This document shows positions 1 to 34,911 of a stretch of 64,000 bases of DNA, piece by piece. This DNA comes from Nothopassalora personata (Eukaryota; Ascomycota; Dothideomycetes; Mycosphaerellales; Mycosphaerellaceae). Below the pieces are notes generated by a model. That model was not told where the DNA came from. It saw only the letters and a list, made by a program, of their open reading frames with translations, and did no database searches. The first letter of the stretch is position 1. Every line of letters begins with the position of its first letter. The DNA lies in the NCBI GenBank assembly GCA_033816765.1, contig CM066288.1:3844001-3908000 (forward strand), in the 5' to 3' direction. A program made the position numbers and the translations under genes.

Positions 1-355
1 CGAGCGTAGGTATCGATGCCTTTTCCGCGTCTTTGTCCTATCTTCTCGTTCCTAAAGGTAGCCCCGAAGAGCTAGAGGGGGTTTTCTAGATGTCGATTCC
101 TTCCTAGGAGGACCTTTCGATGATTCCGGATAATGCCCTCTAGTTATATCCGACCCTTAAGGAAGCCGTAGTAGCTTCTTCAAGCGCTAGCCCCTCTAGT
201 AGATAGGTATTAGTTTCTCGTAGGAGATATATTTATATAAGTTCTCCGTTTCCCTTATTAAACCTAGTTATGTAGCTTAGTAGTAGAGCGTAAGCTATCT
301 ATACTCTTAAGGTCGTAGGTTCGATTCCTACTCTAGCTACTCCCGGCCGACTAGT
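1..355. other. RIP-mutated repeat DNA at window edge
   Basis: This stretch has the TpA-rich, CpA-poor composition of the neighbouring mutated retrotransposons but lies outside the segment shared by Gypsy copies A and C, which begins at about 356. I see no open frame and recognise no domain. The only recognisable structure is a tRNA-like block at 266-339, annotated separately. Confidence 0.5.
266..339 (+). tRNA. Degenerate tRNA-like sequence (pseudo-tRNA)
   Basis: The T arm is perfect: stem GTAGG, loop TTCGATT, stem CCTAC (315-331). It is preceded by an AGGTC variable loop and by a D-arm-like block with stem halves GCTT (275-278) and GAGC (286-289). A partial anticodon stem (291-294 with 306-309) and imperfect acceptor halves (266-272 with 332-338) complete a 74-nt outline. 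The anticodon loop is too long and several stem pairs are broken by C-to-T type changes, so it cannot be functional and I do not assign an isotype. It sits just beyond the 3' end of Gypsy copy A. It could be a RIP-mutated tRNA gene or a tRNA-derived repeat. Confidence 0.35.
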
Positions 356-3300
356 CGCTAATCGGTAGCTTAGTTAGCTAGCCGTTTTTTAGTTTTATAG
401 TATTCCTAGATTTTTTACTAACAGTTTCGTAGGTTCCTTTCTAGTTCCTAGGTATTTTCTAATTCGTCGTATCCTTTCTATTTAATAAGGTATCGCTAAC
501 CTTTCTTATCTAGGATCTTTTCGACTTCGAATTCGTTTTCTACTTCTAGTTCGAAATAGAAGCTCTCCTAGTAAGGTGTTTCGGCGTCTACTAGTTCTAG
601 CTTAGAGATATAGAAGACTAGGTGGATTTTAGCGTCTAGTAGTAGTCGTAGTCGATAGTTAACTAGTCCTACGACTTTATCGATTAAAAATAGTCCGACC
701 TTAACGTAGTCTAGTTTCTTAGTCTATCTTCTTATTCTTAAGTTTTTTGTAAGGAGATAGACCTTATCCCCCTCTTTTAGTAGAGGTGCTATTTTTCTCG
801 TGTCCTACCGTTGTCGAGACAATTTTTATTATGCATCTTCGATCGCCTTGCGTGTTTCTTTATGTACTTCCTTAAGATTATCCGTCGTTACGATTGCTCT
901 TTCGGCTTATAGGTGAGATCTAGGTGTTCTAAATAGGTTAGGATCTTTACTAAAGTTCGCATAAAATGGTGTCGTTGAAGTTGTCTCTAATTTGTAGTTA
1001 TTTAGTGCAATCTGCGCTATTAGCAGTAATGAAACCTAGTTGTCTTACGCGTAGTTAATGTAGTATCGTAGGTATTGTTCTAGCGTTTACTTTATCCTTT
1101 CGGTTTGTCCGTCTATCTCCGGATAATATACTATTAACAGCTTATGTTTAATTCCGATCGTTCCTATAAGCGTCTTCTAGTAGTTTAATGTAAATAGCTT
1201 ATCTCTGTCCGTTATGAACGCTTAAGGGAATCTATAGTATCGGATAAGTCTATCTAGTACGAGGTATCCGAGCTGCTCTACATTATACGTTTCCGATATA
1301 GGAATAAAGTATACGTATTTTATAAGTCTATTAACCATAACTAATATTATGTCGTATAGTTACTTCGTAACTTAATCTCTTAACGGTAGAAGTTTCGTGA
1401 TAAAGTCCATTATAACTTCGTCCTATGGTTTCGTTAGTAGTGTCCTAAACTGTAGGTAACCATATTTTACGTGTCTCGTAGCCTTGTTTCGTTAGTAGTG
1501 TACGCATTGTTTAATGTAGCGTAACACCTTAAGTCTTATCTATAGAAATGAGATACTGCGTTATATTAGGTCTATAGTCTTTAAAGTTCTAGGGTGTCTA
1601 TAAGTTAGTCCGTCGTAATGTTGTCGTATGCATTCCTCTTCTCGATCCTTTAGTACTTAGTATTTTCCTTACGATATAGGGAATTGTTCGTCCCTATCGC
1701 CTAATATCCGTACGATATTATTAAATTCTCTTATGTTAGTACTAAGACTTCTATCGGGGTTTGTCTTTAATATTTTATGTTATACTAGTTCTTTTCCTTC
1801 TATATAGTCGCTTCTTCGGCTTAGCGCGTCGGCGCGGCTATTCTCTCGTCCTAGAGTATATTTAATTTCGAACTTATACTGTCCTAGTAGCTCCGACTAG
1901 CGGGCTTGCCTTCGGGTAAGTTCTTTCGTCGTCGTAAAGTACGTAAGATTCTTATAGTTAGAAAGAATCGTTAACTTCGGTAGGCCCTCGACATATACTC
2001 TCTAATGTTGTATAGTAGTAACAATGGCTAGAAGCTCTTTATTATAGATGTCGTAGTTCTGTTCCGCTATAGTTATTTTCCGGGAGTAATAGGCTACTAG
2101 GTATCTCTACCTATCATGTGTCTATGTTAGACATGCGCCTATTACTATATTAGACGCATCGGTCTCGATGTGGACTTCCTTGCTACCATCAAATAATCGA
2201 AGCGTAGGGGCTAAAGCGCATTGTTCTTTAAGTTTCTTAAATGCTTTAGTCTGTTTCTTTACCCATTTCTAAGTAACGTCCTTTCTCGTAAGCATCGTCA
2301 TTAGTGCTGCTATTTTCGCGTAGTCCTTAATGAATTTCCGGTTGTAGTTCGCTAGTCTAAGGAATGATTGTACGTCCTTAACTGTTTTTAGTTCTAGCTA
2401 CTCTCTAATTAACTATGTCTTCGTAGGGTCGATCGTTATCCCTATGGTGCTAATAATAAAGCCTGAGAATTTAACTTCTTTCTTGTAGAATTCGCATTTC
2501 TCGGGTGCCGTCTTGAATCCTAATTGCGTGAGTCGTTCGAAGACGTCCTAGACTTGTTTTATGTGTTTCTATAGGGATCCTTTTATGTAGACTAGTATGT
2601 CGTCTATGTAGGCGATAACGCATACGTCGAGTAGGTCTCTAAGTGTTTCGTTTATAAGATCCTAGTAGGATACGGGTGCGTTAGTTAATCCCATTAGTAT
2701 AACTAAGAATTCGTAGAGTCCGTATCTTATTCTAAAAGCGGTTTTCTATTCTTCTCCTTCTACTATTCGTATAGCATAGAAGGCATCTCGTAGGTCAATC
2801 TTCGTATACTAGTCCGATCCGGTTAATCTGTCCTATGCTTCTTCGATGTTAGGTAGCGGGTATCGGTTCTTAATCGTAATCTCGTTTAACTTCCTATAGT
2901 CTTGTACGAGTCGTAACTTCCCGTTTGCTTTTAGAACGAACATACATAGAGTTCCTACACTTAAGGTGGATCTTCTTATCTATCCTTTAGCTAGCTTCTC
3001 CTTTAGCTATTCTCGTAGGGTCTATAGCTCTTTCTTAGACATTTGATATAGGGGTCCCTATAGAGGCTCTTTCCCTAGCTAAATGTTGATCTTATAATCC
3101 TATAGGCGGTGCTTAGGTAAGGCGGTTTTGCCTCTCTCCTCTTTAAAGAGTCGCGACTACTTACGATACTCCTTAGGAATACTTAACTCTAAGATGTTAG
3201 TATTCTTCGATAGTGCGTTACTTCTATCACTTCTAGTAACTTCGTGACCCGGCGGCCCTACACTAGTGTCTATCCCGGTCGAAGGTGGTTCTTTTATCCT

Positions 3301-5830
3301 TCTAGTCGGCGTAAGCTATATCTCGTTTAGCTGTTTCCTTGCCTTATCTACTAGTGAACGCTGCTACTACGTAGGCTAAATGTCGATAACGCAATCGCAT
3401 TCCCTAAATGTGAGTACTCCTCTTCTCTAGTCGATTACTAGATTGTGCTTTCTTAACTAAGACATACCTAATACTATGTTATAACTAGCTATATTAGTAA
3501 TATCTAAGGTAATATTCTCGTAGTGCTGTTAGATAGCTAGTGGCAATAGTATCGTCTCCTATTCTACGCTAGGTAACGATAATCCGTTTACCGCGATTAA
3601 CTCGTAACACCATTTCTTCTTTAGGGTAGCTAACCCGTTTCTTCTTATGAAAGACTCGGAGATAAAGTTCCCCGCTGCTCCTAAGTCGATTATAACACTA
3701 GTCTTATGTCCGTTAACGATTACTTGTGTCTAGAAAACTGTGTTTAATGTCGATGCATGAGCCTAAGTATTACATAACTCCCTCCGGTCGCTCATTCCTA
3801 GGGAGCTAATCCTTTTCCCGAATAGTATGTAGTTCGCTATACTTCGTACCTAGAGGCTTCGGCTAGAACCTATAGCCCGTTACCCTATGTCTACACTTGT
3901 AGTCTGTTACGTTCCTAGATCTTCTACGTTTCTAAGTAGAGTGCGCGTGCGTGTTGCACTATGTTGCGTAATTCATTCGATATAAATGTTCCTAACGGTG
4001 TAAGATATCCGGTTCCTGTTATTCGGCTTCCTATTGGTAGTCGTTCTATAACGGTAGTTGCTAGATTCTCGGTTGTTTCTATAAGTGGGTATCCCTAGGC
4101 TATGCCTCGTAGGGTGTCGAGTGTCTTATTAAACTTAATAGAATGTAGCTTCCTTCGTCCACCTATCTTAGGTAGGAATTCCTCGTGCCTTCTTTATAGG
4201 TAGATGATTATGTCGTACAGTTTCTTAGGTGCATCTACCGTAAAGGTAAGTTGTTCGTTATCGTCGTTAGTGTCGCTCTCTTCTCCTTCGGAGGAATCTT
4301 CTTCGCTTAATTCTTCCGGATCCTGTTCTTCCTCGATGGTATCTAGCCCGGTGGTTTCTTAACTTTCTTCCTATGGTTCTAGTAACTATAATCCGTTCCA
4401 TCCTAGGTCCTGATTTCCTTTATCGCTTCTATCTTCGTTAAAGTAGGATTTATCGATGTCCACTTCTCTAAGCGTGGCGTTTTACCTATGCGTCGCTCCT
4501 AGGGTTCCTCGTGGTTGCTAAGGCTAATACCCTACGCCTAATTTCGCGGCGTAGTAGATTTAACACGAGTCTTAGTAACAGAATCGCTAATGAAGGCTTC
4601 TATAACCATTTCGAGACTCGGATTCGGTCTCGTAGTCGACTCTTCGTGTTATTATGTTGAACTGTCGTAGTTGGTTCTTCGCATTAAATAGAATAACTAT
4701 CATTTGCTGCCTATAGTATCCTCCTCGTCCTTCTAAGGGGTCTAGGAGAGGCGTCGTGCTTCTGTTGTTAGCTCTCTCCTCTACTCTCCGAGTATAGTCG
4801 GTATCTCCTCAAGATCTAACGCTGCTCTTAGATTTACTAGTTCGGGGTTGCATTATATTAAATTACTCGCGGCGCACTATATTTTTACCGCGGCAATCTC
4901 GCGCTATGTGACCTTCCTTACTATAGGCATAACATGTAAGTTTTCCTTTTCCTTTAAAGGGCTTTCCGTAGCCCCTACTCTTGTCGATCTTCCGTCCTCG
5001 TTAGGTAACGTCTAGTTCTATTAGCTGTGGTCTATAGTAGGGTTGGCTTTATCGTAAGAATTCTCCCTTCGTAACGTATCCTCCTAAGGGTCTACGGTCC
5101 GGAGCGTATCCTACTATTCCTCCTACTTTGGAGTCGTATCTCTTCTCCTAGTGTCGTTCCTAGAGCTAGTTATCGATATTAATCGACGCCTTCATTAGCT
5201 CTTCGAGGTTAGTAATCCGTCCCCCGTGTCTTATTAACTCGTCCTTAACGGAGTCTTTAAGTCCACGTCGGAACATAGTTATTAACGCCGTCTAGTCCTA
5301 TCCGGTAATTTGTCCGTATTCTTCGAATTTAGCGGCATACTCTAAAGTAGACGTCTTCTACTTTAGGTGTTAAATGATTCGTATGGCCTATTAGACTTCG
5401 TTCGAGGTTCTAAAGATTGATTTTATCTTTTCTTTAAAGAGGGTATAGCTCCTAAACATTCCGGTAGGGTCTTGTCGTCCTATACCTTTAAGGTATTCCT
5501 TAAGGTAAGGTTTGATCTAGTTCTACGCACTTCCGCGAAGGTACGTAATAGCGAAGATAGTTCTTTTATCGGTATCGACTAGGTTGAACATAAGATATAT
5601 ATCTATCTAATTGATCTAGTCGTCGAACTTAGCCCTGTCTCTATAGAAGAGGTCTAGCTTAGTAGCCTTAACGTCGTTCTTCCTTAGAGTAGGCTCGTTA
5701 TCGTTATTAGACTTATCGTCCTTCGTAGTAGTCTATTATAGTAGCGCACGGCGGATGCTTCCTACTTCGCTAGGGGCGGGTGTTCCCCTACTAGCTGCTT
5801 AAGTAGCGCTTATCCTAAGGGCGTTTAAAG
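356..5830 (-). mobile_element. Ty3/Gypsy chromovirus copy A, internal region, RIP-inactivated
   Basis: On the minus strand this reads as gag, protease, reverse transcriptase, RNase H, integrase and chromodomain, running from about 5800 down to 356, but is filled with TAG/TAA where CAG/CAA are expected. It is virtually the reverse complement of copy C: the two agree base for base, including RIP-derived stops, over nearly 5 kb (about 356-5350 against 16150-21146), and diverge in the gag region. Its 5' LTR is at 5831-6262; no 3' LTR is seen, so the element is truncated or rearranged at about 356. The primer-binding region next to the LTR (5821-5828) is complementary to the LTR's own R segment. 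It encodes nothing intact. Confidence 0.85.
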
Positions 5831-6262
5831 TGTTATTATCTCGTTCTAGGGCTAGTCTTAAAGGAGAGATAAGTTAAGTCACGTAGCGGTATTCTCTAGA
5901 GAGGCTAAAGTAAGCTAAGCGAAGATAAATGATAGGAATAAGAGTTATATTCCAATTAGTAAGATAGTAACATAAGTTAAACGCGTTAGAACCATAAGGG
6001 TTTCTAGCGTTCCTAAATATAAAGGAGGCTCGTATACTATCCGGTATTAGGCGTCCGTCTATCTACTCGACCGGTCGCCTAGTCGTGTAGTCGTGTACGT
6101 CTATACGCTACTTCTACGGTCGTGTTCGACCATGCACTAAGCGCGCGGTCGTGCACGTGACCCGGACGTAGGGTCCCTTTCTCTTCCTAGCGATTAGTTC
6201 TTGTCTTCTAATTCTTCCTCCCTATGCCACGTCCTATACCGTCCTTCATCCGAACCGTAACA
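5831..6262 (-). repeat. 5' LTR of Gypsy copy A (432 bp)
   Basis: The LTR starts with TGTTACGG and ends with AATAACA when read on the minus strand. Its R-U5 half matches the LTRs of copies Y/C and D, while the U3 differs from the 387-bp Y/C type and carries repeated CACGAC motifs. It abuts Gypsy gag DNA on the left and an unrelated integrase fragment on the right, so copy A inserted into that older element. Confidence 0.8.
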
Positions 6263-8220: not shown

Positions 8221-8550
8221 TGTTACGGTTTGATTCGTGGAGAACTCACAGCCACTCACTAAGCGAGGAGAGCAAAGAAACTTGCGGGACAGAGAGCAAG
8301 AGATCAAGAGATCAAGAGATCAAGAGAGCAAGAAAACAAGAGATCAAGAGAGCAAGAGAGAGCAGGACAGATCACGCCAAGACATGGCACTATATAGACG
8401 ACGCTCTTTTGCAAGTAGATAGGAGCCTCGTGCTCAACTCATTTTAAGTATACACCATATACTGTTTGGAACCACTACCTTCATAACTGATTGAGACATC
8501 CCTGCAAAGATCCAAGCCCGAGTTGTGATAACGTACAGCGGTTCCTAACA
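8221..8550 (+). repeat. E1 5' LTR
   Basis: This is a TG...CA repeat of 330 bp. U3 holds tandem AGATCAAG/AGAGCAAG octamers (about 8293-8365). A TATA box (TATATAG, 8391-8397) lies 39 bp before GTGCTCAA (8430-8437), the likely transcript start. The same eight bases are complementary to TTGAGCAC at 8554-8561 just after the LTR, suggesting self-primed reverse transcription. Confidence 0.9.
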
Positions 8551-8582
8551 ACTTTGAGCACCACCACCAGGGCACTTTGCAT

Positions 8583-9575
8583 ATGTCTGGGAGAGACGCT
8601 ACCCGGAGTCCGTCACGACAACAGCCACAGTCAACTGGCATCACGGAACGAATGAGCGAAATGTCGATTACAGGAAGCAGCAAGAACAACAACACTCCTA
8701 TGGGTATGCTGAACCCATTGGACCACCACCGTGCACCTAAGGTGTCTACGCCGGAGACGTTCGACGGGACCAAGGACAAACTGGAGGCTTTTCAACTGCA
8801 GGTTCAGTTGTACCTTCACTTCAACGCACACCAGTTTCAAGGCGAGGCCAGCAAGGTCTTGTACGCCGCATCCTTCCTACGAGGAAAAGCAGCTAGAGGA
8901 TTCCGACCATACCTCAAGGACTGGCTACACAACCAGGGCGAGGGAGAAACACCGAAAACGGAAACTCGAAAAATTTTCCACGACTACGACGAGTTTGAGA
9001 CGAAACTCGATGATCTATACGGGATACCAAATGAGGAGGTATACGCCGACCGACATATCCGACAACTTCGACAGACTACTTCTGTAGCGCTGTACGCCTC
9101 AGAATTCCAAGGATATGCCGCCGACCTGGAATGGAACGACGCAGCTTTGCGATCGCAGTTCTACCTCGGGCTGAAAGACAACGTCAAAGCCGAACTATCC
9201 CGAAACGCCAGCGTCGTTACGCTAGGGGCGATGATCAAGGCAGCAAAGGAGATCGACGAAAGGCTCCAGGAGTTGAGGTACGACCGACACGTACAGCCTG
9301 GATACCAGAGACCCGCCGCGAGCGGAAGAGGGGGCTTCAAGGCCAGAAGTCAGGACCCTAGTAGTTACGGGGATCCAATGGAATTGGACGTAACGGAACG
9401 TAGGACAGGAAGGGGGCTGAAGAGCAAAGGTTCCACCTGCTACGTATGTGGCGAGCAAGGCCATTTTGCAAGGAACTGCAAGAAAAGGAACATGGTTAGC
9501 CGCGAATTCAACGCAATGATTCGCGAAGAGAAGACATACCAGGAATGCGAGAGCTTTCTCTCGAAATCTGCCTAG
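8583..9575 (+). CDS. gag: E1 Gag protein
   Basis: This encodes a 330-aa capsid/nucleocapsid protein. The central part (about residues 55-240) matches the retrotransposon Gag domain, including the LRGKA and FYLGLKD-like blocks seen in related Gypsy gags. A basic, Gly/Arg-rich linker leads to a CCHC zinc knuckle (CYVCGEQGHFARNC, about residues 285-298) for RNA binding. I start at the ATG at 8583, the first in frame after the LTR. It is nearly identical to Gag of E2 and homologous to the RIP-broken gag of copies A, C and D. It ends without any readthrough into pol, because the element has no pol. The frame is fully open, so it is probably functional or was until recently. Confidence 0.9.
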   Translation: MSGRDATRSPSRQQPQSTGITERMSEMSITGSSKNNNTPMGMLNPLDHHRAPKVSTPETFDGTKDKLEAFQLQVQLYLHFNAHQFQGEASKVLYAASFLRGKAARGFRPYLKDWLHNQGEGETPKTETRKIFHDYDEFETKLDDLYGIPNEEVYADRHIRQLRQTTSVALYASEFQGYAADLEWNDAALRSQFYLGLKDNVKAELSRNASVVTLGAMIKAAKEIDERLQELRYDRHVQPGYQRPAASGRGGFKARSQDPSSYGDPMELDVTERRTGRGLKSKGSTCYVCGEQGHFARNCKKRNMVSREFNAMIREEKTYQECESFLSKSA

Positions 9576-9600
9576 CAGAAACAACCTGACGACAACGGCC

Positions 9601-10254
9601 TCACACCGCGGACTCTTGATGTGAAGGCTCGGGAGAAAAGAGACCCTTTAACGGATCGTCGAGAGGGACACCCGTTATCGTACTCCAGTGGTCCAGGGGC
9701 ATTTCGAGAATGCCGTGGAAAAAGGAATGATCTGGCACCTCTATGCCGGAGGGAACGGAGAAAGGAAGGACGGACTCGGGAGAAGGATCCTCGGACTCCA
9801 GCTCCTCGAGTGCCAAGGCAGTGGCACCATCGACGCGGTTCTCGGCGAGACGCAGTTGTTTCCTGAGACGAATCTTTTTCATTCTTCTTTCGGACAACGC
9901 CTGTTGGTCACGAGACAATCGCTGCAGAATCTCCACCTCCTCCTCCTCCAACGACTCGATGTCACGACGCAACGCTTCCCTCGCGTTCCGAAGTTTTTCC
10001 CACTGGGAAAAGGCGAGAGAGACGTCGCAAGACTTCCGGTTGTGCTTGATGCACTCGGAACACTTTGATGAACGAGGACCGACGACGCAGCGGGGACGAA
10101 CTTCGCCGGGTGCAACGACAACAGACTTGCAGGAAGAACAGGGCGCCATTTCAGTACCGTTTGTTTCGATATCGGTATAAAGGTCCAGACGACGGAGAGT
10201 GGACGAAACCTTTGGCTTGCGACGGTGTGTGGGTGATGGTAAAGAAGACGACAT
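9601..10254 (-). CDS. E1 antisense Zn2Cys6-like coiled-coil protein
   Basis: A 217-aa protein is encoded opposite to gag, between the gag stop and the 3' LTR. After a basic, Ser-rich N-terminus come six cysteines at residues 39, 42, 56, 65, 68 and 76, spaced C-x2-C-x13-C-x8-C-x2-C-x7-C. This is the GAL4-type Zn2Cys6 layout except for a longer second gap. A Glu/Lys/Arg-rich stretch at about 85-145 should form a coiled coil, as in dimerising Zn2Cys6 factors, and an acidic/Pro-rich tail follows. I chose the ATG at 10254 because the E2 homologue starts at the equivalent MSSS. Role as a nuclear DNA-binding regulator of the element is inference. Confidence 0.75.
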   Translation of the reverse strand: MSSSLPSPTHRRKPKVSSTLRRLDLYTDIETNGTEMAPCSSCKSVVVAPGEVRPRCVVGPRSSKCSECIKHNRKSCDVSLAFSQWEKLRNAREALRRDIESLEEEEVEILQRLSRDQQALSERRMKKIRLRKQLRLAENRVDGATALALEELESEDPSPESVLPFSVPSGIEVPDHSFFHGILEMPLDHWSTITGVPLDDPLKGLFSPEPSHQESAV

Positions 10255-10294
10255 CTTTAGCCGATGGAAAAGATGCACACTCGAAACGACTATA

Positions 10295-10311
10295 AGCTTC
10301 GGGACGAAGCT
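10295..10311. promoter_or_regulatory. Conserved hairpin before the polypurine tract of E1
   Basis: AGCTTCG-GGA-CGAAGCT is a perfect 7-bp stem with a 3-nt loop. It is shared with E2 (34558-34574) and recognisable, though RIP-altered, in copy Y near 11380-11400. It lies between the antisense start codon and the polypurine tract, so it could act in the antisense leader or in the element RNA. Confidence 0.5.
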
Positions 10312-10329
10312 AGGCTAGAAGGGGGATGG

Positions 10330-10659
10330 TGTTACGGTTTGATTCGTGGAGAACTCACAGCCACTCACTAAGCGAGGAGAGCAAAGAAACTTGCGGGACA
10401 GAGAGCAAGAGATCAAGAGATCAAGAGATCAAGAGAGCAAGAGAACAAGAGATCAAGAGAGCAAGAGAGAGCAGGACAGATCACGCCAAGACATGGCACT
10501 ATATAGACGACGCTCTTTTGCAAGTAGATAGGAGCCTCGTGCTCAACTCATTTTAAGTATACACCATATACTGTTTGGAACCACTACCTTCATAACTGAT
10601 TGAGACATCCCTGCAAAGATCCAAGCCCGAGTTGTGATAACGTACAGCGGTTCCTAACA
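10330..10659 (+). repeat. E1 3' LTR
   Basis: 330 bp, matching the 5' LTR except for one A/G difference in the U3 octamer array. It follows the polypurine tract ending at 10329 and is followed by the target duplication ACGGG at 10660-10664. Confidence 0.9.
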
Positions 10660-11459: not shown

Positions 11460-12017
11460 ATGCCTATCTACTAACGCCCTTCTAGCACTATCCGTCGCCG
11501 CCGTCTCTACGAGTTCGTTAAATCCGCGGGAGAAGTTATAGTTAAGAAATGCTTAACGTGTGAAAAGCATGGTCGCGTGTATAAGGTGCACATTCGTTCC
11601 GGGAAGTGTAGTAAGTGTCTTCGTCGCGGCTAAAGGTGCGATGTAAGAGTAACTTAGTCGGAGTTTAAGAGGTTAGTAGAGGAGAAGGCTCGTCTTCGTT
11701 AGAAAATCCAGGAGTCTCGGTCCGCTTAGGAGGAGGCGATGCGGGTTTATAAGAAGGCTCTCGAGGATCTAAAGATTGCTCGCGCGCGCGAGGAGCGCTT
11801 ACGTTAGTAGATAGATCTAGTAGATCGTCGTGCCGAGGAGGCAATTTCCGTTAAGGAAAGGGAGATCGAGGAGCAGGAGATAGAAGAGGCTTCTTTGCTT
11901 CCTTCGGATATCCCTTGTGAGGGTCTAGCTCTCAACTTGTTACTAGGCACATGGGGTGCTATTAAGGGTCTCGGTAACGAGTTCTAGGAGGTACCCGAAC
12001 TACTCCCTGCTAGTTGA
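11460..12017 (+). pseudogene. Antisense Zn2Cys6-like gene of Gypsy copy Y, RIP-broken
   Basis: The plus strand, opposite to Y's pol, reads through a frame of about 185 codons homologous to the antisense proteins of E1 and E2: a basic start, C-x2-C, the V-H-I-R-S-G-K-C-S-K-C block, a final Cys followed by D-V-R-V-T, then a charged coiled-coil-like region and an acidic tail. Length and position match the 186-aa E2 protein. The third Cys codon now reads Tyr (TAT) and several Gln codons are TAA or TAG, all explicable as RIP. This copy shows that the antisense gene also occurs in a pol-bearing element and is not confined to the short ones. Confidence 0.7.
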
Positions 12018-15288: not shown

Positions 15289-15675
15289 TGTTACGGTTCG
15301 GTCCAAACGGCAGCCCCGACTAGACACACGAAACACTAATCACTTAGAAACACGTGATACTAATCATCTAGACGCACGTGACACTGATCACTTCACGGAC
15401 TAATTAGTGTAATTAGTATGCTCAGTAGGACTAATTAAGGTGATTATACTAAGCTATAGGCTCTACGCCGCGAATCTCCTTTGTATTTAGGAACGCTAGA
15501 AACCCTTATGGTTCTAATGCGTTCAACTCATGTTACTATCTTACTAATTGGAATACAACTCTTATTCCTATCATTTATCTTCGCTTAGCTTGCTTTAGCC
15601 TCTCTAAAGAATAATACCGCCACGTAACTTAACTTATCTCTCTTTTAAGACTAGCCCTAGAACGAGACAATAACA
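15289..15675 (+). repeat. LTR of Gypsy copy Y, right member, now 5' LTR of C
   Basis: This 387-bp LTR reads TGTTACGG to AATAACA on the plus strand. It is followed after two bases by TTAAACGC (15678-15685), complementary to the GCGTT(C/T)AA segment in its own R region (15519-15526), the self-priming arrangement also seen in copy A. Its left flank TATAT (15284-15288) is the reverse complement of ATATA at 10977-10981. Confidence 0.85.
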
Positions 15676-18600
15676 CTTTAAACGCCCTTAGGATAAGCGC
15701 TACTTAAGCAGCTAGTAGGAGAACACCCGCCCCTAGCGAAGTAGGAAGCATCCGCCGTGCGCTACTACAACAGACTACTACGAAGGACGATAAGTCTAAT
15801 AACGATGACGAGCCTACTCTAAGGAAGAACGACGTTAAGGCTGCTAAGCTAGACCTCTTCTATAGAGATAGGGCTAAGTTCGACGACTGGATCAATTAGA
15901 TAGATATGTATCTTATGTTTAACCTAGTCGATGCCGATAAAAGAACTATCTTCGCTATTACGTACCTTCGCGGAAGTGCGCAGAACTGGATCAAACCTTA
16001 CCTTAAGGAATACCTTAAAGGTATAGGACGATTAGACCCCACTAGAATGTTTAGGAGCTACACTCTCTTTAAAGATAAGATGAAATCAATCTTTAGAACC
16101 TCGAACGAAGTCTAATAGGCTATACGAATCATTTAACACCTAAAGTAGAAGACGTCTACTTTAGAGTATGCCGCTAAATTCGAAGAATACGGACAAATTA
16201 CCGGATAGGACTAGACGGCGTTAATAACTATGTTCCGACGTGGACTTAAAGACTCCGTTAAGGACGAGTTAATAAGACACGGGGGACGGATTACTAACCT
16301 CGAAGAGCTAATGAAGGCGTCGATTAATATCGATAACTAGCTCTAGGAACGACACTAGGAGAAGAGATACGACTCCAAAGTAGGAGGAATAGTAGGATAC
16401 GCTCCGGACCGTAGACCCTTAGGAGGATACGTTACGAAGGGAGAATTCTTACGATAAAGCCAACCCTACTATAGACCACAGCTAATAGAACTAGACGTTA
16501 CCTAACGAGGACGGAAGATCGACAAGAGTAGGGGCTACGGAAAGCCCTTTAAAGGAAAAGGAAAACTTACATGTTATGCCTATAGTAAGGAAGGTCACAT
16601 AGCGCGAGATTGCCGCGGTAAAAATATAGTGCGCCGCGAGTAATTTAATATAATGCAACCCCGAACTAGTAAATCTAAGAGCAGCGTTAGATCTTGAGGA
16701 GATACCGACTATACTCGGAGAGTAGAGGAGAGAGCTAACAACAGAAGCACGACGCCTCTCCTAGACCCCTTAGAAGGACGAGGAGGATACTATAGGCAGC
16801 AAATGATAGTTATTCTATTTAATGCGAAGAACCAACTACGACAGTTCAACATAATAACACGAAGAGTCGACTACGAGACCAAATCCGAGTCTCGAAATGG
16901 TTATAGAAGCCTTCATTAGCGATTCTGTTACTAAGACTCGTGTTAAATCTACTACGCCGCGAAATTAGGCGTAGGGTATTAGCCTTAGCAACCACGAGGA
17001 ACCCTAGGAGCGACGCATAGGTAAAACGCCACGCTTAGAGAAGTGGACATCGATAAATCCTACTTTAACGAAGATAGAAGCGATAAAGGAAATCAGGACC
17101 TAGGATGGAACGGATTATAGTTACTAGAACCATAGGAAGAAAGTTAAGAAACCACCGGGCTAGATACCATCGAGGAAGAACAGGATCCGGAAGAATTAAG
17201 CGAAGAAGATTCCTCCGAAGGAGAAGAGAGCGACACTAACGACGATAACGAACAACTTACCTTTACGGTAGATGCACCTAAGAAACTGTACGACATAATC
17301 ATCTACCTATAAAGAAGGCACGAGGAATTCCTACCTAAGATAGGTGGACGAAGGAAGCTACATTCTATTAAGTTTAATAAGACACTCGACACCCTACGAG
17401 GCATAGCCTAGGGATACCCACTTATAGAAACAACCGAGAATCTAGCAACTACCGTTATAGAACGACTACCGATAGGAAGCCGAATAACAGGAACCGGATA
17501 TCTTACACCGTTAGGAACATTTATATCGAATGAATTACGCAACATAGTGCAACACGCACGCGCACTCTACTTAGAAACGTAGAAGATCTAGGAACGTAAC
17601 AGACTACAAGTGTAGACATAGGGTAACGGGCTATAGGTTCTAGCCGAAGCCTCTAGGTACGAAGTATAGCGAACTACATACTATTTGGGAAAAGGATTAG
17701 CTCCCTAGGAATGAGCGACCGGAGGGAGTTATGTAATACTTAGGCTCATGCATCGACATTAAACACAGTTTTCTAGACACAAGTAATCGTTAACGGACAT
17801 AAGACTAGTGTTATAATCGACTTAGGAGCAGCGGGGAACTTTATCTCCGAGTCTTTCATAAGAAGAAACGGGTTAGCTACCCTAAAGAAGAAATGGTGTT
17901 ACGAGTTAATCGCGGTAAACGGATTATCGTTACCTAGCGTAGAATAGGAGACGATACTATTGCCACTAGCTATCTAACAGCACTACGAGAATATTACCTT
18001 AGATATTACTAATATAGCTAGTTATAACATAGTATTAGGTATGTCTTAGTTAAGAAAGCACAATCTAGTAATCGACTAGAGAAGAGGAGTACTCACATTT
18101 AGGGAATGCGATTGCGTTATCGACATTTAGCCTACGTAGTAGCAGCGTTCACTAGTAGATAAGGCAAGGAAACAGCTAAACGAGATATAGCTTACGCCGA
18201 CTAGAAGGATAAAAGAACCACCTTCGACCGGGATAGACACTAGTGTAGGGCCGCCGGGTCACGAAGTTACTAGAAGTGATAGAAGTAACGCACTATCGAA
18301 GAATACTAACATCTTAGAGTTAAGTATTCCTAAGGAGTATCGTAAGTAGTCGCGACTCTTTAAAGAGGAGAGAGGCAAAACCGCCTTACCTAAGCACCGC
18401 CTATAGGATTATAAGATCAACATTTAGCTAGGGAAAGAGCCTCTATAGGGACCCCTATATCAAATGTCTAAGAAAGAGCTATAGACCCTACGAGAATAGC
18501 TAAAGGAGAAGCTAGCTAAAGGATAGATAAGAAGATCCACCTTAAGTGTAGGAACTCTATGTATGTTCGTTCTAAAAGCAAACGGGAAGTTACGACTCGT

Positions 18601-21146
18601 ACAAGACTATAGGAAGTTAAACGAGATTACGATTAAGAACCGATACCCGCTACCTAACATCGAAGAAGCATAGGACAGATTAACCGGATCGGACTAGTAT
18701 ACGAAGATTGACCTACGAGATGCCTTCTATGCTATACGAATAGTAGAAGGAGAAGAATAGAAAACCGCTTTTAGAATAAGATACGGACTCTACGAATTCT
18801 TAGTTATACTAATGGGATTAACTAACGCACCCGTATCCTACTAGGATCTTATAAACGAAACACTTAGAGACCTACTCGACGTATGCGTTATCGCCTACAT
18901 AGACGACATACTAGTCTACATAAAAGGATCCCTATAGGAACACATAAAACAAGTCTAGGACGTCTTCGAACGACTCACGCAATTAGGATTCAAGACGGCA
19001 CCCGAGAAATGCGAATTCTACAAGAAAGAAGTTAAATTCTCAGGCTTTATTATTAGCACCATAGGGATAACGATCGACCCTACGAAGACATAGTTAATTA
19101 GAGAGTAGCTAGAACTAAAAACAGTTAAGGACGTACAATCATTCCTTAGACTAGCGAACTACAACCGGAAATTCATTAAGGACTACGCGAAAATAGCAGC
19201 ACTAATGACGATGCTTACGAGAAAGGACGTTACTTAGAAATGGGTAAAGAAACAGACTAAAGCATTTAAGAAACTTAAAGAACAATGCGCTTTAGCCCCT
19301 ACGCTTCGATTATTTGATGGTAGCAAGGAAGTCCACATCGAGACCGATGCGTCTAATATAGTAATAGGCGCATGTCTAACATAGACACATGATAGGTAGA
19401 GATACCTAGTAGCCTATTACTCCCGGAAAATAACTATAGCGGAACAGAACTACGACATCTATAATAAAGAGCTTCTAGCCATTGTTACTACTATACAACA
19501 TTAGAGAGTATATGTCGAGGGCCTACCGAAGTTAACGATTCTTTCTAACTATAAGAATCTTACGTACTTTACGACGACGAAAGAACTTACCCGAAGGCAA
19601 GCCCGCTAGTCGGAGCTACTAGGACAGTATAAGTTCGAAATTAAATATACTCTAGGACGAGAGAATAGCCGCGCCGACGCGCTAAGCCGAAGAAGCGACT
19701 ATATAGAAGGAAAAGAACTAGTATAACATAAAATATTAAAGACAAACCCCGATAGAAGTCTTAGTACTAACATAAGAGAATTTAATAATATCGTACGGAT
19801 ATTAGGCGATAGGGACGAACAATTCCCTATATCGTAAGGAAAATACTAAGTACTAAAGGATCGAGAAGAGGAATGCATACGACAACATTACGACGGACTA
19901 ACTTATAGACACCCTAGAACTTTAAAGACTATAGACCTAATATAACGCAGTTTCTCATTTCTATAGATAAGACTTAAGGTGTTACGCTACATTAAACAAT
20001 GCGTACACTACTAACGAAACAAGGCTACGAGACACGTAAAATATGGTTACCTACAGTTTAGGACACTACTAACGAAACCATAGGACGAAGTTATAATGGA
20101 CTTTATCACGAAACTTCTACCGTTAAGAGATTAAGTTACGAAGTAACTATACGACATAATATTAGTTATGGTTAATAGACTTATAAAATACGTATACTTT
20201 ATTCCTATATCGGAAACGTATAATGTAGAGCAGCTCGGATACCTCGTACTAGATAGACTTATCCGATACTATAGATTCCCTTAAGCGTTCATAACGGACA
20301 GAGATAAGCTATTTACATTAAACTACTAGAAGACGCTTATAGGAACGATCGGAATTAAACATAAGCTGTTAATAGTATATTATCCGGAGATAGACGGACA
20401 AACCGAAAGGATAAAGTAAACGCTAGAACAATACCTACGATACTACATTAACTACGCGTAAGACAACTAGGTTTCATTACTGCTAATAGCGCAGATTGCA
20501 CTAAATAACTACAAATTAGAGACAACTTCAACGACACCATTTTATGCGAACTTTAGTAAAGATCCTAACCTATTTAGAACACCTAGATCTCACCTATAAG
20601 CCGAAAGAGCAATCGTAACGACGGATAATCTTAAGGAAGTACATAAAGAAACACGCAAGGCGATCGAAGATGCATAATAAAAATTGTCTCGACAACGGTA
20701 GGACACGAGAAAAATAGCACCTCTACTAAAAGAGGGGGATAAGGTCTATCTCCTTACAAAAAACTTAAGAATAAGAAGATAGACTAAGAAACTAGACTAC
20801 GTTAAGGTCGGACTATTTTTAATCGATAAAGTCGTAGGACTAGTTAACTATCGACTACGACTACTACTAGACGCTAAAATCCACCTAGTCTTCTATATCT
20901 CTAAGCTAGAACTAGTAGACGCCGAAACACCTTACTAGGAGAGCTTCTATTTCGAACTAGAAGTAGAAAACGAATTCGAAGTCGAAAAGATCCTAGATAA
21001 GAAAGGTTAGCGATACCTTATTAAATAGAAAGGATACGACGAATTAGAAAATACCTAGGAACTAGAAAGGAACCTACGAAACTGTTAGTAAAAAATCTAG
21101 GAATACTATAAAACTAAAAAACGGCTAGCTAACTAAGCTACCGATT
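15676..21146 (+). mobile_element. Gypsy chromovirus copy C, gag-pol remnant, RIP-inactivated
   Basis: In order on the plus strand: gag (about 15,740-16,650, with a zinc knuckle near 16,569-16,615 whose second Cys is lost), aspartic protease (Asp-Leu-Gly-Ala near 17,815), reverse transcriptase (YIDD near 18,897), RNase H (ETDAS near 19,340), integrase (about 19,900-20,650) and a C-terminal chromodomain (EVEKILD near 20,975). Stops from CAG/CAA occur throughout; the longest open stretch is 69 codons in gag (15906-16115). From about 16,150 onward it is the near-perfect reverse complement of copy A. It ends at 21146, where copy D begins in opposite orientation across the shared trinucleotide GCG. 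Confidence 0.85.
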
Positions 21147-23037
21147 AGCGTACGTGCGTGTTACACTATGTTGCGTAATTCATTCGATATAAATGTTCCT
21201 AACGGTATAAGATATCCGGTTCCTATTATTCGGCTTCCTATCGGTAGTCGTTCTATAACGGCGGTTACTAGATTCTCGGTTGTTTCTATAAGTAGGTATC
21301 CCTAGGCTATGCCTCGTAGGGTGTCGAGTGTCTTATTAAACTTAATAGAGTATAGCCTCCTTTATCTACCTATCTTAGGTAGGAATTCCTCGTACCTTCT
21401 TTATAGGTAGATAATTATATCGTACAGTTTCTTAGGTGTATCTACCGTAAAGGTAAGTTGTTCGTTATCGTCGTTAGTGTCGCTCTCTTCTCCTTCGGAG
21501 GAATCTTCTTCGCTTAATTCTTCCGGATCCTATTCTTCCTTAATAGTATTTAGCCCGGTAGTTTCTTAACTTTCTTCCTATGGTTCTAGTAACTATGATC
21601 CGTTCTATCCTAGGTCCTGATTTTCTTTATCGCTTCTATCTTTATCGAAGTAGGATTCGTCGATGTCTACTTCTCGGAGCGTGGCGTTTTGCCTATACGT
21701 CGCTCCTAGGGTTCCTCGTAGTTACTAAGGCTAATACCCTACGCCTAACTTCGCGGCGTAGTAGACTTAATACGAGTCTTAGTAATAGAATCGCTAATGA
21801 AGGCTTCTATAACTATTTCGAGACTCGGATTCGATCTCGTAGTCGACTCTTCGTGTTATTATATTAAACTGTCGTAGTTGGTTCTTCGCATTAAATGGAA
21901 TAACCGCTATTTACTGCCTATAGTATCCTCCTCGTTCTTCTAAGGGGTCTAGGAGAGGCATCGTGCTTCTATTACTAGCTCTCTCCCCTACTCTCCGAGT
22001 ATAGTCGGTATCTCCTCGAGATCTAACGCTACTCTCGGATTTACTAGTTCGGGGTTGCATTATATTAAATTGCTCGCGGCGTACTATATTCTTACCGCGG
22101 CAATCCCGTGCTATGTAACCTTCCTTACTATAGGCATAGCATATAAGTTTTCCTTTTCCTTTAAAGGGCTTTCCGTAGCCCCTACTCTTATCGATCCTCC
22201 GTCCTCGTTAGGTAACGTCTAGTTCTATTAGCTATAGTCTATAGTAGGGTTGGCTTTATCGTAAGAATTCTCCCTTCGTAACGTATCCTCCTAAGGGTCT
22301 ACGGTCCGGAGCGTATCCTACTATTCCTCCTACTTTAGAGTCGTATTTCTTTTCCTAGTGTCGTTCCTAGAGCTAGTTATCGATATTAATCGACGCCTTT
22401 ATTAGCTCTTCGAGGTTAGTAATCTATCCCCCGTGTCTTATTAACTCGTCCTTAACGGAGTCCTTAAGTCTACGTCGGAATATAGTTATTAACGCCGTCT
22501 AGTCCTATCTAGTAATTTGTCCGTATTCTTCGAATTTAGCGGCATACTCTAAAGTAGACGTCTTCTACTTTAGGTGTTGAATGATTCGTATAGCCTATTA
22601 GACTTCGTTCGAGGTTCTAAAGATTGATTTCATCTTATCTTTAAAGAGAGTGTAGCTCCTAAACATTCTAGTGGGGTCTAATCGTCCTATACCTTTAAGG
22701 TATTCCTTAAGGTAAGGTTTGATCCAGTTCTGCGCACTTCCGCGAAGGTACGTAATAGCGAAGATAGTTCTTTTATCGGCATCGACTAGGTTAAACATAA
22801 GGTATATATCTATCTAATTAATCCAGTCGTCGAACTTAGCTCTATCTCTATAGAAGAGATCTAGCTTAGTAGCCTTAACGTTATTCTTCCTTAGAGTAGG
22901 CTCGTTATCGTTATTAGACTTATCGTCCTTCGTAGTAGTCTATTATAGTAGCGCACGGCGGATGCTTCCTACTTCGCTAGGGGCGGGTGTTCCCCTACTA
23001 GCTGCTTAAGTAGCGCTTATCCTAAGGGCGTTTAAAG
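21147..23037 (-). mobile_element. Gypsy copy D, truncated gag region, RIP-inactivated
   Basis: The minus strand carries gag of the same family as copies A and C: the 66-codon open stretch at 22598-22798 is identical in protein sequence to the piece in copy C. It is cut off on the left at 21146/21147, so protease and the rest of pol are missing. Its 5' LTR follows at 23038-23468. Confidence 0.8.
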
Positions 23038-24809: not shown

Positions 24810-24993
24810 TGTAAGGGCGCGCGTACCATAGGGTCCGAATGAGATAGTTGTTGTTCTACGAAGCTACGAAAGAGGAGCGCGAGGCGCGGCGGATAGATAA
24901 AGCAACGCCAAGCCGCGCTAACCCGATGCGGAAGGTCCGAGGTTCCGCCGGGACGACGCATCGTCAGTGAAGGGTCGCGGGCTGCCCGTGACA
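24810..24993 (-). repeat. F 3' LTR
   Basis: 184 bp, TGTCACGG to CTTACA on the minus strand. The last codons of pol run into it: the pol stop is at 24918. Confidence 0.92.
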
Positions 24994-29729: not shown

Positions 29730-29747
29730 GTGGCCTCGCCATTTCCC
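29705..29747 (-). promoter_or_regulatory. Probable -1 ribosomal frameshift signal between F gag and pol
   Basis: The minus strand at 29747-29741 reads GGGAAAT in the phase G-GGA-AAT, the X-XXY-YYZ slippery pattern, 15 nt before the gag stop (29725-29723). After a 5-nt spacer comes an 8-bp stem, GGCCACTG (29735-29728) with CAGTGGTC (29712-29705) including one G-U pair, closing a 15-nt loop. Slippage by -1 puts ribosomes into the pol frame, which is open across this region. Confidence 0.65.
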
Positions 29748-31756: not shown

Positions 31757-31925
31757 CTGTTGCTTAGTGCCTTACCGTGTTCCGTGTTCTGAATCCGTTT
31801 GCCTCTGTTGCGATGTTGCGAGTCGCGAGTTCTGTATCTACGCCGTGCGCGGTTCTGTGAGTCTGTTCCTGTTGTTACGCGTCCCTTACCTGGATCCGCG
31901 ATCTGGGTAGGGAGGTAGAACAAAC

Positions 31926-32109
31926 TGTAAGGGCGCGCGTACCATAGGGTCCGAATGAGATAGTTGTTGTTCTACGAAGCTACGAAAGAGGAGCGCGAGG
32001 CGCGGCGGATAGATAAAGCAACGCCAAGCCGCGCTAACCCGATGCGGAAGGTCCGAGGTTCCGCCGGGACGACGCATCGTCAGTGAAGGGTCGCGGGCTG
32101 CCCGTGACA
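31926..32109 (-). repeat. F 5' LTR
   Basis: 184 bp, identical by eye to the other LTR. On the minus strand a TATA-like TTTATCTA lies about 40 bp before GTAGAACAA (31975-31967), whose complement TTGTTCTAC begins 2 nt after the LTR end (31923-31915). Confidence 0.92.
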
Positions 32110-32511: not shown

Positions 32512-32830
32512 TGTTACGGATCGGTCTGGGGAAGCCCGTAGCCAACCAATCGATGCCAGCAGACCAGCGGATGCACCCGATATGCAGAGTGCTCTCAGTG
32601 CTCTCGGGTGCTCTCTCGAGAGAGCAGAGAGAGCAGAGAGAGCAGGAAAGATCACGCCAAGACACGGCACTATATAGACGACGCTCTTTTGCAAGTAGAT
32701 AGGAGCCTCGTGCTCAACTCATTTTAAGTATACACCATATACTGTTTGGAACCACTACCTTCATAACTGATTGAGACATCCCTGCAAAGATCCAAGCCCG
32801 AGTTGTGATAACGTACAGCGGTTCCTAACA
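32512..32830 (+). repeat. E2 5' LTR
   Basis: 319 bp. U3 contains an 18-bp perfect palindrome, TGCTCTCTCGAGAGAGCA (32609-32626), followed by GAGAGAGCA repeats, features absent from the E1 U3. The TATA box and everything downstream match E1. Confidence 0.9.
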
Positions 32831-32862
32831 ACTTTGAGCACCACCACCAGGGCCCTTTGCAT

Positions 32863-33855
32863 ATGTCTGGGAGAGACGCTACCCGGAGTCCGTCACGACA
32901 ACAGCCACAGTCAACTGGCATCACGGAACGAATGAGCGAAATGTCGATTACAGGAAGCAGCAAGAACAACAACACTCCTATGGGTATGCTGAACCCATTG
33001 GACCACCACCGTGCACCTAAGGTGTCTACGCCGGAGACGTTCGACGGGACCAAGGACAAACTGGAGGCTTTTCAACTGCAGGTTCAGTTGTACCTTCACT
33101 TCAACGCACACCAGTTTCAAGGCGAGGCTTCTAAAGTCTTGTACGCCGCATCCTTCCTACGAGGAAAAGCAGCTAGAGGATTCCGACCATACCTCAAGGA
33201 CTGGCTACACAACCAGGGCGAGGGAGAAACACCGAAAACGGAAACTCGAAAAATTTTCCACGACTACGACGAGTTTAAGACGAAACTCGATGATCTATAC
33301 GGGATACCAAATGAGGAGGTATACGCCGACCGACATATCCGACAACTTCGACAGACTACTTCTGTAGCGCTGTACGCCTCAGAATTCCAAGGATATGCCG
33401 CCGACCTGGAATGGAACGACGCAGCTTTGCGATCGCAGTTCTACCTCGGGCTGAAAGACAACGTCAAAGCCGAACTATCCCGAAACGCCAGCGTCGTTAC
33501 GCTAGGGGCGATGATCAAGGCAGCAAAGGAGATCGACGAAAGGCTCCAGGAGTTGAGGTACGACCGACACGTACAGCCTGGATACCAGAGACCCGCCGCG
33601 GGCGGAAGAGGGGGCTTCAAGGCCAGAAGTCAGGACCCTAATGGTTACGGAGACCCAATGGAATTGGACGTAACGGAACGTAGGACAGGAAGGGGGCTGA
33701 AGAGCAAAGGTTCCACCTGCTACGTATGTGGCGAGCAAGGCCACTTTGCAAGAAACTGCAAGAAGAAGAACATGGTTAGCCGCGAGTTCAACGCAATGAT
33801 TCGCGAAGAGAATACATACCAGGAATGCGAGAACTTCTTCTCGAAATCTGCCTAG
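32863..33855 (+). CDS. gag: E2 Gag protein
   Basis: This encodes 330 aa, nearly identical to the E1 Gag with only a handful of substitutions, most of them in the C-terminal quarter. It has the Gag domain at about 55-240 and a CCHC zinc knuckle at about 285-298. The ATG at 32863 is the first in frame after the LTR and corresponds to the E1 start. The intact frame and its conservation between E1 and E2 suggest selection on Gag even though both lack pol, as expected if Gag acts in cis on their own RNA. Reverse transcriptase and integrase would come from an autonomous relative. Confidence 0.9.
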   Translation: MSGRDATRSPSRQQPQSTGITERMSEMSITGSSKNNNTPMGMLNPLDHHRAPKVSTPETFDGTKDKLEAFQLQVQLYLHFNAHQFQGEASKVLYAASFLRGKAARGFRPYLKDWLHNQGEGETPKTETRKIFHDYDEFKTKLDDLYGIPNEEVYADRHIRQLRQTTSVALYASEFQGYAADLEWNDAALRSQFYLGLKDNVKAELSRNASVVTLGAMIKAAKEIDERLQELRYDRHVQPGYQRPAAGGRGGFKARSQDPNGYGDPMELDVTERRTGRGLKSKGSTCYVCGEQGHFARNCKKKNMVSREFNAMIREENTYQECENFFSKSA

Positions 33856-33958
33856 CAGAAACAACCTGACGACGAGGCATCAAACAGCGGCTTCTTGATT
33901 TGATGACCTAGGACACAGAAGTCAACACTACGACACGGAAAACAGATAAAGGACGAAC

Positions 33959-34519
33959 TTACGACGAGACCAACTCCGAGAAGGATTCAGGAAGGAGGAG
34001 ATTCCCATCCAAGGACAAGCTAGGGTCGAAGACCGAAGGATCGGAGGCAGGAAACCACCAGTCTTCCGGGATGGAAGGCGGAGCGGCCTCGAGCTCCCCT
34101 TGTTCTAACACTTGGATGCTCGCCTCCTCGACAGCGATCGCCTCGCCCTCGCGCTTTTCGTGCAGCTCAAGCTGACGACGAAGACGCGCCTCCTTCGCAT
34201 AGGCTGCCGCGATCTCTTCACTCTTGCGAACGAGATCATGACGGACCGCTTCAAGCTCACGGGTGAGCTTGTCCCGTACGGACTGAAGGGACTTCCACTC
34301 AGCAGGAGTGACTCGCACGTCACAACCCTTGATGTTGTGTTCGTTGCACTCCGAACAGCGGCCCGATTTGATGTGGACACGGCACACCTTTTCCTCACGA
34401 GTGCAGAAAGAGCACGACTTGACCATAGTAATCCCGTTCTCTCGAATGAACTTGGCAAGCTTCTTGCGACGATGCGTACTGGTTTTGGTGACGGGAAGGG
34501 AAAGGGAAGAAGAAGACAT
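33959..34519 (-). CDS. E2 antisense Zn2Cys6-like coiled-coil protein
   Basis: A 186-aa protein is encoded opposite to gag. Six cysteines at 36, 39, 46, 55, 58 and 66 are spaced C-x2-C-x6-C-x8-C-x2-C-x7-C, which fits the fungal GAL4-type binuclear cluster consensus. A basic stretch precedes it. The segment from about 72 to 135 is a heptad-like charged helix (coiled coil), and the tail is acidic and Pro-rich, resembling an activation region. It is clearly homologous to the E1 protein around the cysteines (SxxCSEC, HNxKxCDV) but much diverged elsewhere, in contrast to the near-identical Gag. The ATG at 34519 is supported by alignment with E1. Its promoter would lie between the start codon and the 3' LTR, or in that LTR. 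Function as a regulator is inference. Confidence 0.78.
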   Translation of the reverse strand: MSSSSLSLPVTKTSTHRRKKLAKFIRENGITMVKSCSFCTREEKVCRVHIKSGRCSECNEHNIKGCDVRVTPAEWKSLQSVRDKLTRELEAVRHDLVRKSEEIAAAYAKEARLRRQLELHEKREGEAIAVEEASIQVLEQGELEAAPPSIPEDWWFPASDPSVFDPSLSLDGNLLLPESFSELVSS

Positions 34520-34557
34520 CGTTGGATGACAAAGTTGGAAAGGAATGACATCTTGTA

Positions 34558-34574
34558 AGCTTCGGGACGAAGCT
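34558..34574. promoter_or_regulatory. Conserved hairpin before the polypurine tract of E2
   Basis: The same AGCTTCG-GGA-CGAAGCT inverted repeat as in E1 (10295-10311), within a 37-bp block shared by E1 and E2 although the antisense genes beside it differ. Confidence 0.5.
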
Positions 34575-34592
34575 AGGCTAGAAGGGGGATGG

Positions 34593-34911
34593 TGTTACGG
34601 ATCGGTCTGGGGAAGCCCGTAGCCAACCAATCGATGCCAGCAGACCAGCGGATGCACCCGATATGCAGAGTGCTCTCAGTGCTCTCGGGTGCTCTCTCGA
34701 GAGAGCAGAGAGAGCAGAGAGAGCAGGAAAGATCACGCCAAGACACGGCACTATATAGACGACGCTCTTTTGCAAGTAGATAGGAGCCTCGTGCTCAACT
34801 CATTTTAAGTATACACCATATACTGTTTGGAACCACTACCTTCATAACTGATTGAGACATCCCTGCAAAGATCCAAGCCCGAGTTGTGATAACGTACAGC
34901 GGTTCCTAACA
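34593..34911 (+). repeat. E2 3' LTR
   Basis: 319 bp, identical by eye to the 5' LTR, preceded by the polypurine tract and followed by the target duplication CTATA (34912-34916). Confidence 0.9.

Follow-up and report, generated by a model that had tools for sequence, protein, structure and literature searches.

What would a retrotransposon that lacks pol do with an additional gene on its opposite strand? The question is raised by a 64,000-nt stretch of the Nothopassalora personata genome (contig CM066288.1, positions 3,844,001–3,908,000; hereafter the window), which harbors two short long terminal repeat (LTR) retrotransposons of the Ty3/gypsy type, E1 (2.44 kb) and E2 (2.40 kb), and a related relic, Y, broken by repeat-induced point mutation (RIP). 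A sequence-only reading of the window had placed an antisense gene beside the 3′ LTR in all three, and this was borne out. The gene was found to belong to a large family under purifying selection, and it seems to move together with the adjacent U3 region. We give an even chance to the reading that it encodes a dimeric DNA-binding regulator, most likely an activator, of the element's own U3, carried in an exchangeable 3′ cassette.

Antisense genes in E1 and E2

The coordinates of all features are given in Table 1. Both elements have LTRs with the ends TGTTACGG...TAACA, the 5′ and 3′ LTRs are 99.7–100% identical, a polypurine tract stands before the 3′ LTR, and each insertion is flanked by a 5-bp target duplication; by their sequence, E1 and E2 are young insertions. 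The only sense coding is gag (Retrotrans_gag domain and CCHC knuckle in Pfam), and pol is absent from both elements over their whole length. The antisense gene lies between gag and the 3′ LTR, its stop codon being 25 bp (E1) or 103 bp (E2) from the gag stop, and its ATG 75 bp outside the 3′ LTR in both cases. As the sequence-only reading had stated, the frames are intact in the two pol-less elements: that of E1 is complete from ATG to stop (217 amino acids, minus strand, 10254–9601), and that of E2 is complete as well (186 amino acids, minus strand, 34519–33959). The translation of Y is 87.5% identical to an O-type protein, O being one of the lettered sub-families described below.

Gene family and purifying selection

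Among the checks suggested along with the earlier reading were a search for further copies and a comparison of substitution rates. When the genome (54.5 Mb, 40 contigs) was searched, the E1 and E2 proteins each gave at least 150 scored matches (the best 150 of 745 and of 781 first-look candidates, respectively), and three sequence clades were recognized: I (E1 type), II (E2 type) and III. Clades I and II are homologous across most of their length (hhalign, P = 1.8 × 10−32). Clade III, first read beside a short gag at locus L036, has 114 genome matches, one of which is a host gene. Genome-wide, nine of nine E1-type copies and 27 of 32 E2-type copies are free of stops, the remaining five having one TAG each. 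At least one antisense gene is found opposite the gag or pol strand in 22 of the 23 loci examined, the exception being L024, within whose 3.6 kb neither gag nor pol was found; in most copies, the conserved antisense open reading frame (ORF) is located between gag or pol and the 3′ LTR.

The family is present both in full-length gag-pol elements of about 7 kb and in short gag-only ones. The full-length elements at L051–L053, read end to end, measure 7.0, 7.4 and 7.2 kb between the outer LTR ends, with gag frames of 692–768 amino acids, pol frames of 1159–1214 amino acids and the antisense gene convergent with pol; their gags share only 35–37% identity with the short gag. The gene is carried by 103 of the 117 intact short-gag copies (55 of clade I or II, 47 of clade III, and one further clade II gene from a fetched stretch), while the other 14 were counted neither way. 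Loss of the gene from 62 of the 117 copies, as it had appeared in the clade I/II searches, was rejected, since clade III explained 47 of these and the fetched stretch one more.

The ratio of replacement to synonymous substitution rates (dN/dS) is far from neutral: 0.039 for E1/A2 (51 synonymous and 8 replacement changes), 0.086 for D/E (70 and 31) and 0.097 for F/E. Measured against a rough 3:1 expectation, the binomial P is about 5 × 10−23 for E1/A2 and about 1 × 10−20 for D/E; pairs with saturated dS (above about 1) and the pair D/F (3 changes, ratio 0.61) were left out. All six cysteines are invariant among 20 diverse members, and among 123 members three are invariant and the other three are retained in at least 90%. 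Judged from these substitution patterns, the antisense ORF is a real coding gene under strong purifying selection, and a chance ORF is ruled out by family size and dN/dS. The earlier supposition that the gene matters to the element is supported by dN/dS values of 0.04–0.10 wherever measurable and the retention of the gene in pol-less elements.

Searches of protein databases yielded 32 relatives for E1, 227 for clade II (120 of these listed) and a single clade III homologue (E-value, 2.5 × 10−51). Named relatives come from Cryoendolithus antarcticus, a member of the class Dothideomycetes, and from Cladosporium sp. NU13, Hortaea werneckii, Elsinoe australis and Cercospora kikuchii, which we take to belong to the same class. 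Among the matches listed for clade II, two relatives are entered in the database as Zn(2)-C6 fungal-type, and many metagenomic contigs with clade II relatives measure 6.0–7.4 kb, near the length of one full-length element, perhaps as a result of assembly halting at LTRs.

Two groups of copies stand out by their arrangement. From L036 onwards (G000:C12:1355698-1367634) no fewer than six short elements of the Q type follow one another in tandem at a spacing of 2056 bp, and L024–L030 (ends of contigs C9, C20, C21 and C30, and small contigs) hold identical RIP-marked clade I copies with four TAG and one TAA, perhaps part of a larger, possibly subtelomeric, repeat amplified after RIP.

Apparent exchange of the 3′ cassette

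Gags that are about 97% identical are accompanied by antisense genes that are often only 30–60% identical. The synonymous divergence (dS) is 0.022 in gag versus 0.43 in the antisense gene for E1/A2, 0.17 versus 0.85 for D/E, and 0.045 versus saturation for E1/E2; this disparity suggests that the gene and U3 move as a cassette. Along E1 and E2, identity is 95–100% over R-U5 and most of gag and 89% around the gag end; it falls to 31–55% in the antisense gene, is mixed across U3 and returns to 98% in the final R-U5, and therefore the 3′ cassette, composed of the antisense gene and U3, and the rest of the element differ in history. Such a mosaic would arise if the template were switched at a point between gag and the antisense gene, because reverse transcription copies the 3′ U3 into both LTRs. 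Despite these exchanges, the gene is still present in 103 of 103 assignable short copies, which argues that it is needed.

Half-site arrays in U3

Short half-sites, both direct and inverted, form arrays in most U3 regions, and a TATA-like motif, which reads CACTATATAG in short elements, lies just downstream of them; the copy number of the array differs between copies. In 16 sub-families (F, near-identical to D, was left out), the most frequent 7-mer of U3 was compared with 500 dinucleotide shuffles. It exceeded all shuffles in nine U3s (E1, E2, A2, D, G, L, M, O and W), while its count was reached by 4 (J), 8 (I), 14 (Q), 39 (E) and 42 (N) of the 500 in five others; no 7-mer enrichment was detected in the U3 of B (443/500) and H (423/500).

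The half-sites were sorted into dialects by patterns that were picked by eye after the data had been seen and then counted: TG[AC]TCTC (A2, 8; E1, 9; E2, 6; M, 10; B, 3), TCAG (D, 9; E, 4; G, 7; O, 8), TCTG (L, 10; W, 5) and GGTCG (I, 8; J, 7). For the first three dialects, the quoted letters come after [TG]G[AC]TC. Sub-family N is mixed, H and Q fit no dialect, and stray single sites of other dialects occur. Protein identity is correlated with array similarity (Mantel test, r = 0.31, 0.35 and 0.38 for k = 5, 6 and 7, matched in 31, 13 and 5 of 5000 permutations, respectively), and by the same type of test array similarity does not follow the short or long element type. The short element I and the long element J have a common dialect and proteins that are 53% identical, though their gag and promoter differ. 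A swap of U3 with the dialect kept was considered for E1/A2 and rejected, as the left-U3 identities (64% to E1 versus 73% to E2) are too close.

Predicted protein

Zn2Cys6 clusters follow the consensus C-x2-C-x6-C-x5..12-C-x2-C-x6..8-C. The E2 spacing, C-x2-C-x6-C-x8-C-x2-C-x7-C, fits it exactly, as had been claimed, and the consensus is also matched by four other clade II proteins and by the clade III protein Q (x11 in the middle). A profile of the E2 type aligned with 13 host Zn_clus domains with the six cysteines in register (P = 2 × 10−4), and the profile segment score (22.9) was higher than those of all 60 fully shuffled (maximum, 13.4) and all 60 cysteine-kept shuffled profiles (maximum, 21.1); on this comparison, the likeness of E2-type proteins to host Zn2Cys6 domains appears to go further than the spacing of the cysteines. 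For clade III, there is a match to a host Zn_clus gene with an E-value of 1.8 × 10−4, the host gene itself matching Zn_clus at 4.2 × 10−9.

In the AlphaFold2 model of E2, in which no metal was placed, the predicted local distance difference test score is 88–95 over the cluster, with helices at residues 37–42 and 56–61. The best Foldseek matches of the model are to Pho7, and it superposes on LAC9 (1.9 Å over 33 residues), Leu3 (1.8 Å over 35) and Pho7 (2.3 Å over 36); the fits to these three factors span 1.7–2.3 Å, all with weak scores. A long helix, read as a coiled coil, follows the cysteines in models of both the E1 and E2 types. Thus modeled, the E2-type protein is predicted to combine a Zn2Cys6 cluster with a long coiled coil. 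The C-terminal tail contains Trp, Phe and Leu and is acidic, the last 60 residues including 7–17 acidic and 0–3 basic ones in 15 of 15 proteins. No basic leucine zipper (bZIP) family was matched by E1 or E2 in Pfam at E-values up to 10, and the TRP28 domain (PF04195) is not among the Pfam families matched by E1, E2 or Q.

Proposed mechanism and alternatives

According to the proposed mechanism, transcription of the gene would start at a putative antisense promoter in the U3 of the 3′ LTR and run against gag-pol. Its product would carry a Zn2Cys6-type cluster at the N-terminus (of canonical form in clade II, with the Cys2–Cys3 loop enlarged in clade I), dimerise through a long coiled coil, and end in an acidic tail, containing Trp, Phe and Leu, that may serve as an activation domain. 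The dimer would bind the direct and inverted half-sites of the array in its own U3 and would control, most likely activate, the sense promoter just downstream. Gene and array would travel as one 3′ cassette that recombination sets behind different gags, so that non-autonomous elements would retain a transcriptional switch of their own and depend on other elements for pol alone, probably supplied in trans. Activation is favored over repression only because of the acidic tail. More tentatively, and at somewhat less than an even chance, such "regulator plus operator" cassettes may be swapped between autonomous and parasitic elements, each element having a private circuit with its own half-site dialect; if this is true, a eukaryotic retroelement would have a counterpart to the immunity regions of lambdoid phages.

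Several results weigh against this regulator. In Pfam, Zn_clus is matched by neither E1 nor E2, so that this suggested check came out negative; none of the 123 members is significant (best E-value 0.06, among 33 of the 123), and Q reaches 10.4 bits against a cut-off of 21, compared with 31.2 bits for the positive control, a host Zn2Cys6 transcription factor with a Fungal_trans domain (57165–58622). The E1 spacing, C-x2-C-x13-C-x8-C-x2-C-x7-C, is outside the consensus, with a Cys2–Cys3 gap of 13 instead of 6, and the gap is longer than 6 in the aligned clade I members; because of it, the E1 type is here named a divergent relative and not a Zn2Cys6 member. By sequence, the E1-type proteins are homologous to the E2 type but divergent in cysteine spacing. 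The clade I model has no match in the PDB (Foldseek, E-values up to 10). Of the GAL4-type cluster with coiled coil proposed for the whole group, the E2 half is thus upheld by spacing, its predicted fold having weak structural scores, and the E1 half is not upheld. A simple recognition code is also at odds with the common dialect of E1 and E2, whose proteins are only about 31% identical, and with the occurrence of the TCAG dialect in both clades I and II. An Asn/Gly column after Cys5 separates the dialects in 13 sub-families (N, H and Q dropped) but was rejected as dialect determinant, as relabeling matches too often, and linkage alone could produce the correlation between protein and array.

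The alternative that survives best, though we regard it as unlikely, is a repressor with the same protein and target, which would shut the U3 promoter, limit copy number and protect the resident cassette in the manner of a phage immunity repressor and its operators; in that case, cassettes would be swapped because selection favors new types of immunity. The many divergent regulator–U3 cassettes behind nearly one gag agree with this, as does an antisense position that permits self-limiting expression, but the acidic aromatic tail is more like an activation domain, and many near-identical recent copies of single types coexist. Rather improbable is a role of the protein as an accessory factor that binds zinc but leaves the array unread, in which case the arrays would be slippage repeats or host-factor sites and the cassette inheritance mere linkage. 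Such a factor would suit the variable array copy number, the dialects common to different clades and the unmatched E1-type fold; it would leave unexplained that half-sites are inverted as well as direct, and that I and J share a dialect and related proteins although gag and promoter differ. An anti-silencing function or another nuclear step (chromatin, import or integration) exerted through the arrays, as by VANC for Arabidopsis VANDAL, is the most doubtful. In its favor, E1 and E2 have no RIP skew although heavily RIP-marked relics lie beside them, and VANC targets are, in the available text, likewise tandem repeats that vary between related transposable elements (PMC5735166). Against it, the arrays occupy the usual place of an activator, just upstream of the TATA-like motif, no link to silencing was seen, and the lack of RIP could simply reflect a recent insertion.

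Comparison with known systems

With Pho7, Leu3, LAC9 and HAP1, the E2 model shares a six-cysteine cluster, two short helices and a following coiled coil, whereas those factors are host genes, usually with a large middle domain. The half-sites described here are TGNTC-like, unlike the CGG triplets that are the half-sites of GAL4. HBZ of human T-cell leukemia virus type 1, which is also named in PMC11963269, is a nuclear regulator encoded on the antisense strand and expressed from a retroelement's 3′ end, similar in position to the present genes; however, it is a bZIP protein, of a type that E1 and E2 do not match.

The sequence-only reading knew of no fungal Zn2Cys6 example. Antisense genes of fungal LTR elements as such are on record, namely brtn of Boty (PMC7264820, PMC8365987; also PMC4227169, PMC5987419), and the literature search, as far as the retrieved texts extend, recognized no antisense Zn2Cys6 gene in an LTR element. 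Boty-like elements of Botrytis are likewise of the Ty3/gypsy type and have, close to the 3′ LTR, an additional gene that runs antisense to gag-pol, but the available descriptions, on which this comparison is based, present BRTN neither as Zn2Cys6 nor with U3 arrays or pol-less carriers. Plant Retand elements are described as having antisense TRP28 ORFs, for which DNA binding is predicted and a regulatory role proposed, along with tandem repeats in the same region (PMC11963269); these ORFs encode a TRP28 domain of flowering plants, not a six-cysteine protein, and the repeats lie between pol and the 3′ LTR, whereas those of the fungal elements lie inside U3. Gene23 of maize Grande is also antisense between pol and the 3′ LTR, with its own promoter and a nuclear protein, and no resemblance to Zn2Cys6 is reported in the text available (PMC7264820). 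For VANC, co-evolution of protein and motif has been shown according to the source text, which, as here, concerns a protein encoded by a transposable element and family-specific short motifs in tandem arrays diverging between related elements; the differences are a DNA transposon, unrelated protein domains and anti-silencing proven by experiment (PMC5735166). The carriers described here, with LTRs and gag, and with pol in the full-length elements, are not VANDAL elements.

In the text consulted, antisense genes of LTR elements had hitherto been without known function (PMC7264820). New in the present family are the cassette-like exchange of the gene with U3 and the U3 half-site arrays; the sequence-only reading had missed both, as well as the full-length gag-pol relatives. 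A recognizable DNA-binding design, a plausible neighboring target, many natural protein–target variants within a single genome and carriers that retain only gag and the antisense gene make the function directly testable, and the finding suggests that transposons can carry exchangeable transcription circuits.

Features of the window

Table 1. Elements E1, E2 and Y in the window (coordinates refer to the 64,000-nt stretch).
Feature	Position	Strand	Basis or remark
E1, short non-autonomous LTR element, gag only, target duplication acggg	8221..10659	+	direct repeats and flanks
E1 5′ LTR, TGTTACGG...TAACA	8221..8550	+	
E1 gag (Retrotrans_gag, CCHC zinc knuckle)	8583..9575	+	Pfam E-values 8.9 × 10−11 and 2.9 × 10−6; ATG chosen by eye
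E1 antisense gene, 217 amino acids, clade I: six Cys, predicted coiled coil, acidic C-terminus	9601..10254	-	
E1 3′ LTR; polypurine tract AGGGGGATGG before it	10330..10659	+	
E1 U3 half-site array (GAGA[TG]CA = TG[AC]TCTC type)	10375..10480	.	ends set by eye
Y, RIP-broken antisense gene of O type, 8 stops	11460..12011	+	
E2, short non-autonomous LTR element, gag only, target duplication ctata	32512..34911	+	
E2 5′ LTR	32512..32830	+	
E2 gag	32863..33855	+	Pfam E-value 2.9 × 10−11
E2 antisense gene, 186 amino acids, clade II: Zn2Cys6 spacing, predicted coiled coil, acidic C-terminus	33959..34519	-	
E2 3′ LTR	34593..34911	+	
E2 U3 half-site array with inverted copies (TGCTCTC / GAGAGCA)	34669..34726	.	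ends set by eye

A complete-looking chromodomain Ty3/gypsy element is found on the minus strand at 24810–32109, with 184-nt LTRs that are 100% identical, a long gag frame (682 amino acids), a pol frame (1624 amino acids), a TpA/ApT ratio of 0.67 and no RIP skew; the clade I/II antisense proteins had no match within it by tblastn. At the left edge of the window (3–164), there is a relic of a J-type antisense gene with three stops. Heavily RIP-marked relics adjoin E1 and E2, which themselves show no RIP skew, and the TpA/ApT ratio is 1.70 around Y versus 0.82 in E1 and 0.86 in E2. Positions 1–23239 are occupied by nested RIP-marked relics with very long inverted repeats, whose arms (356–5893 and 15613–21150; 5538 nt) are 99% complementary.
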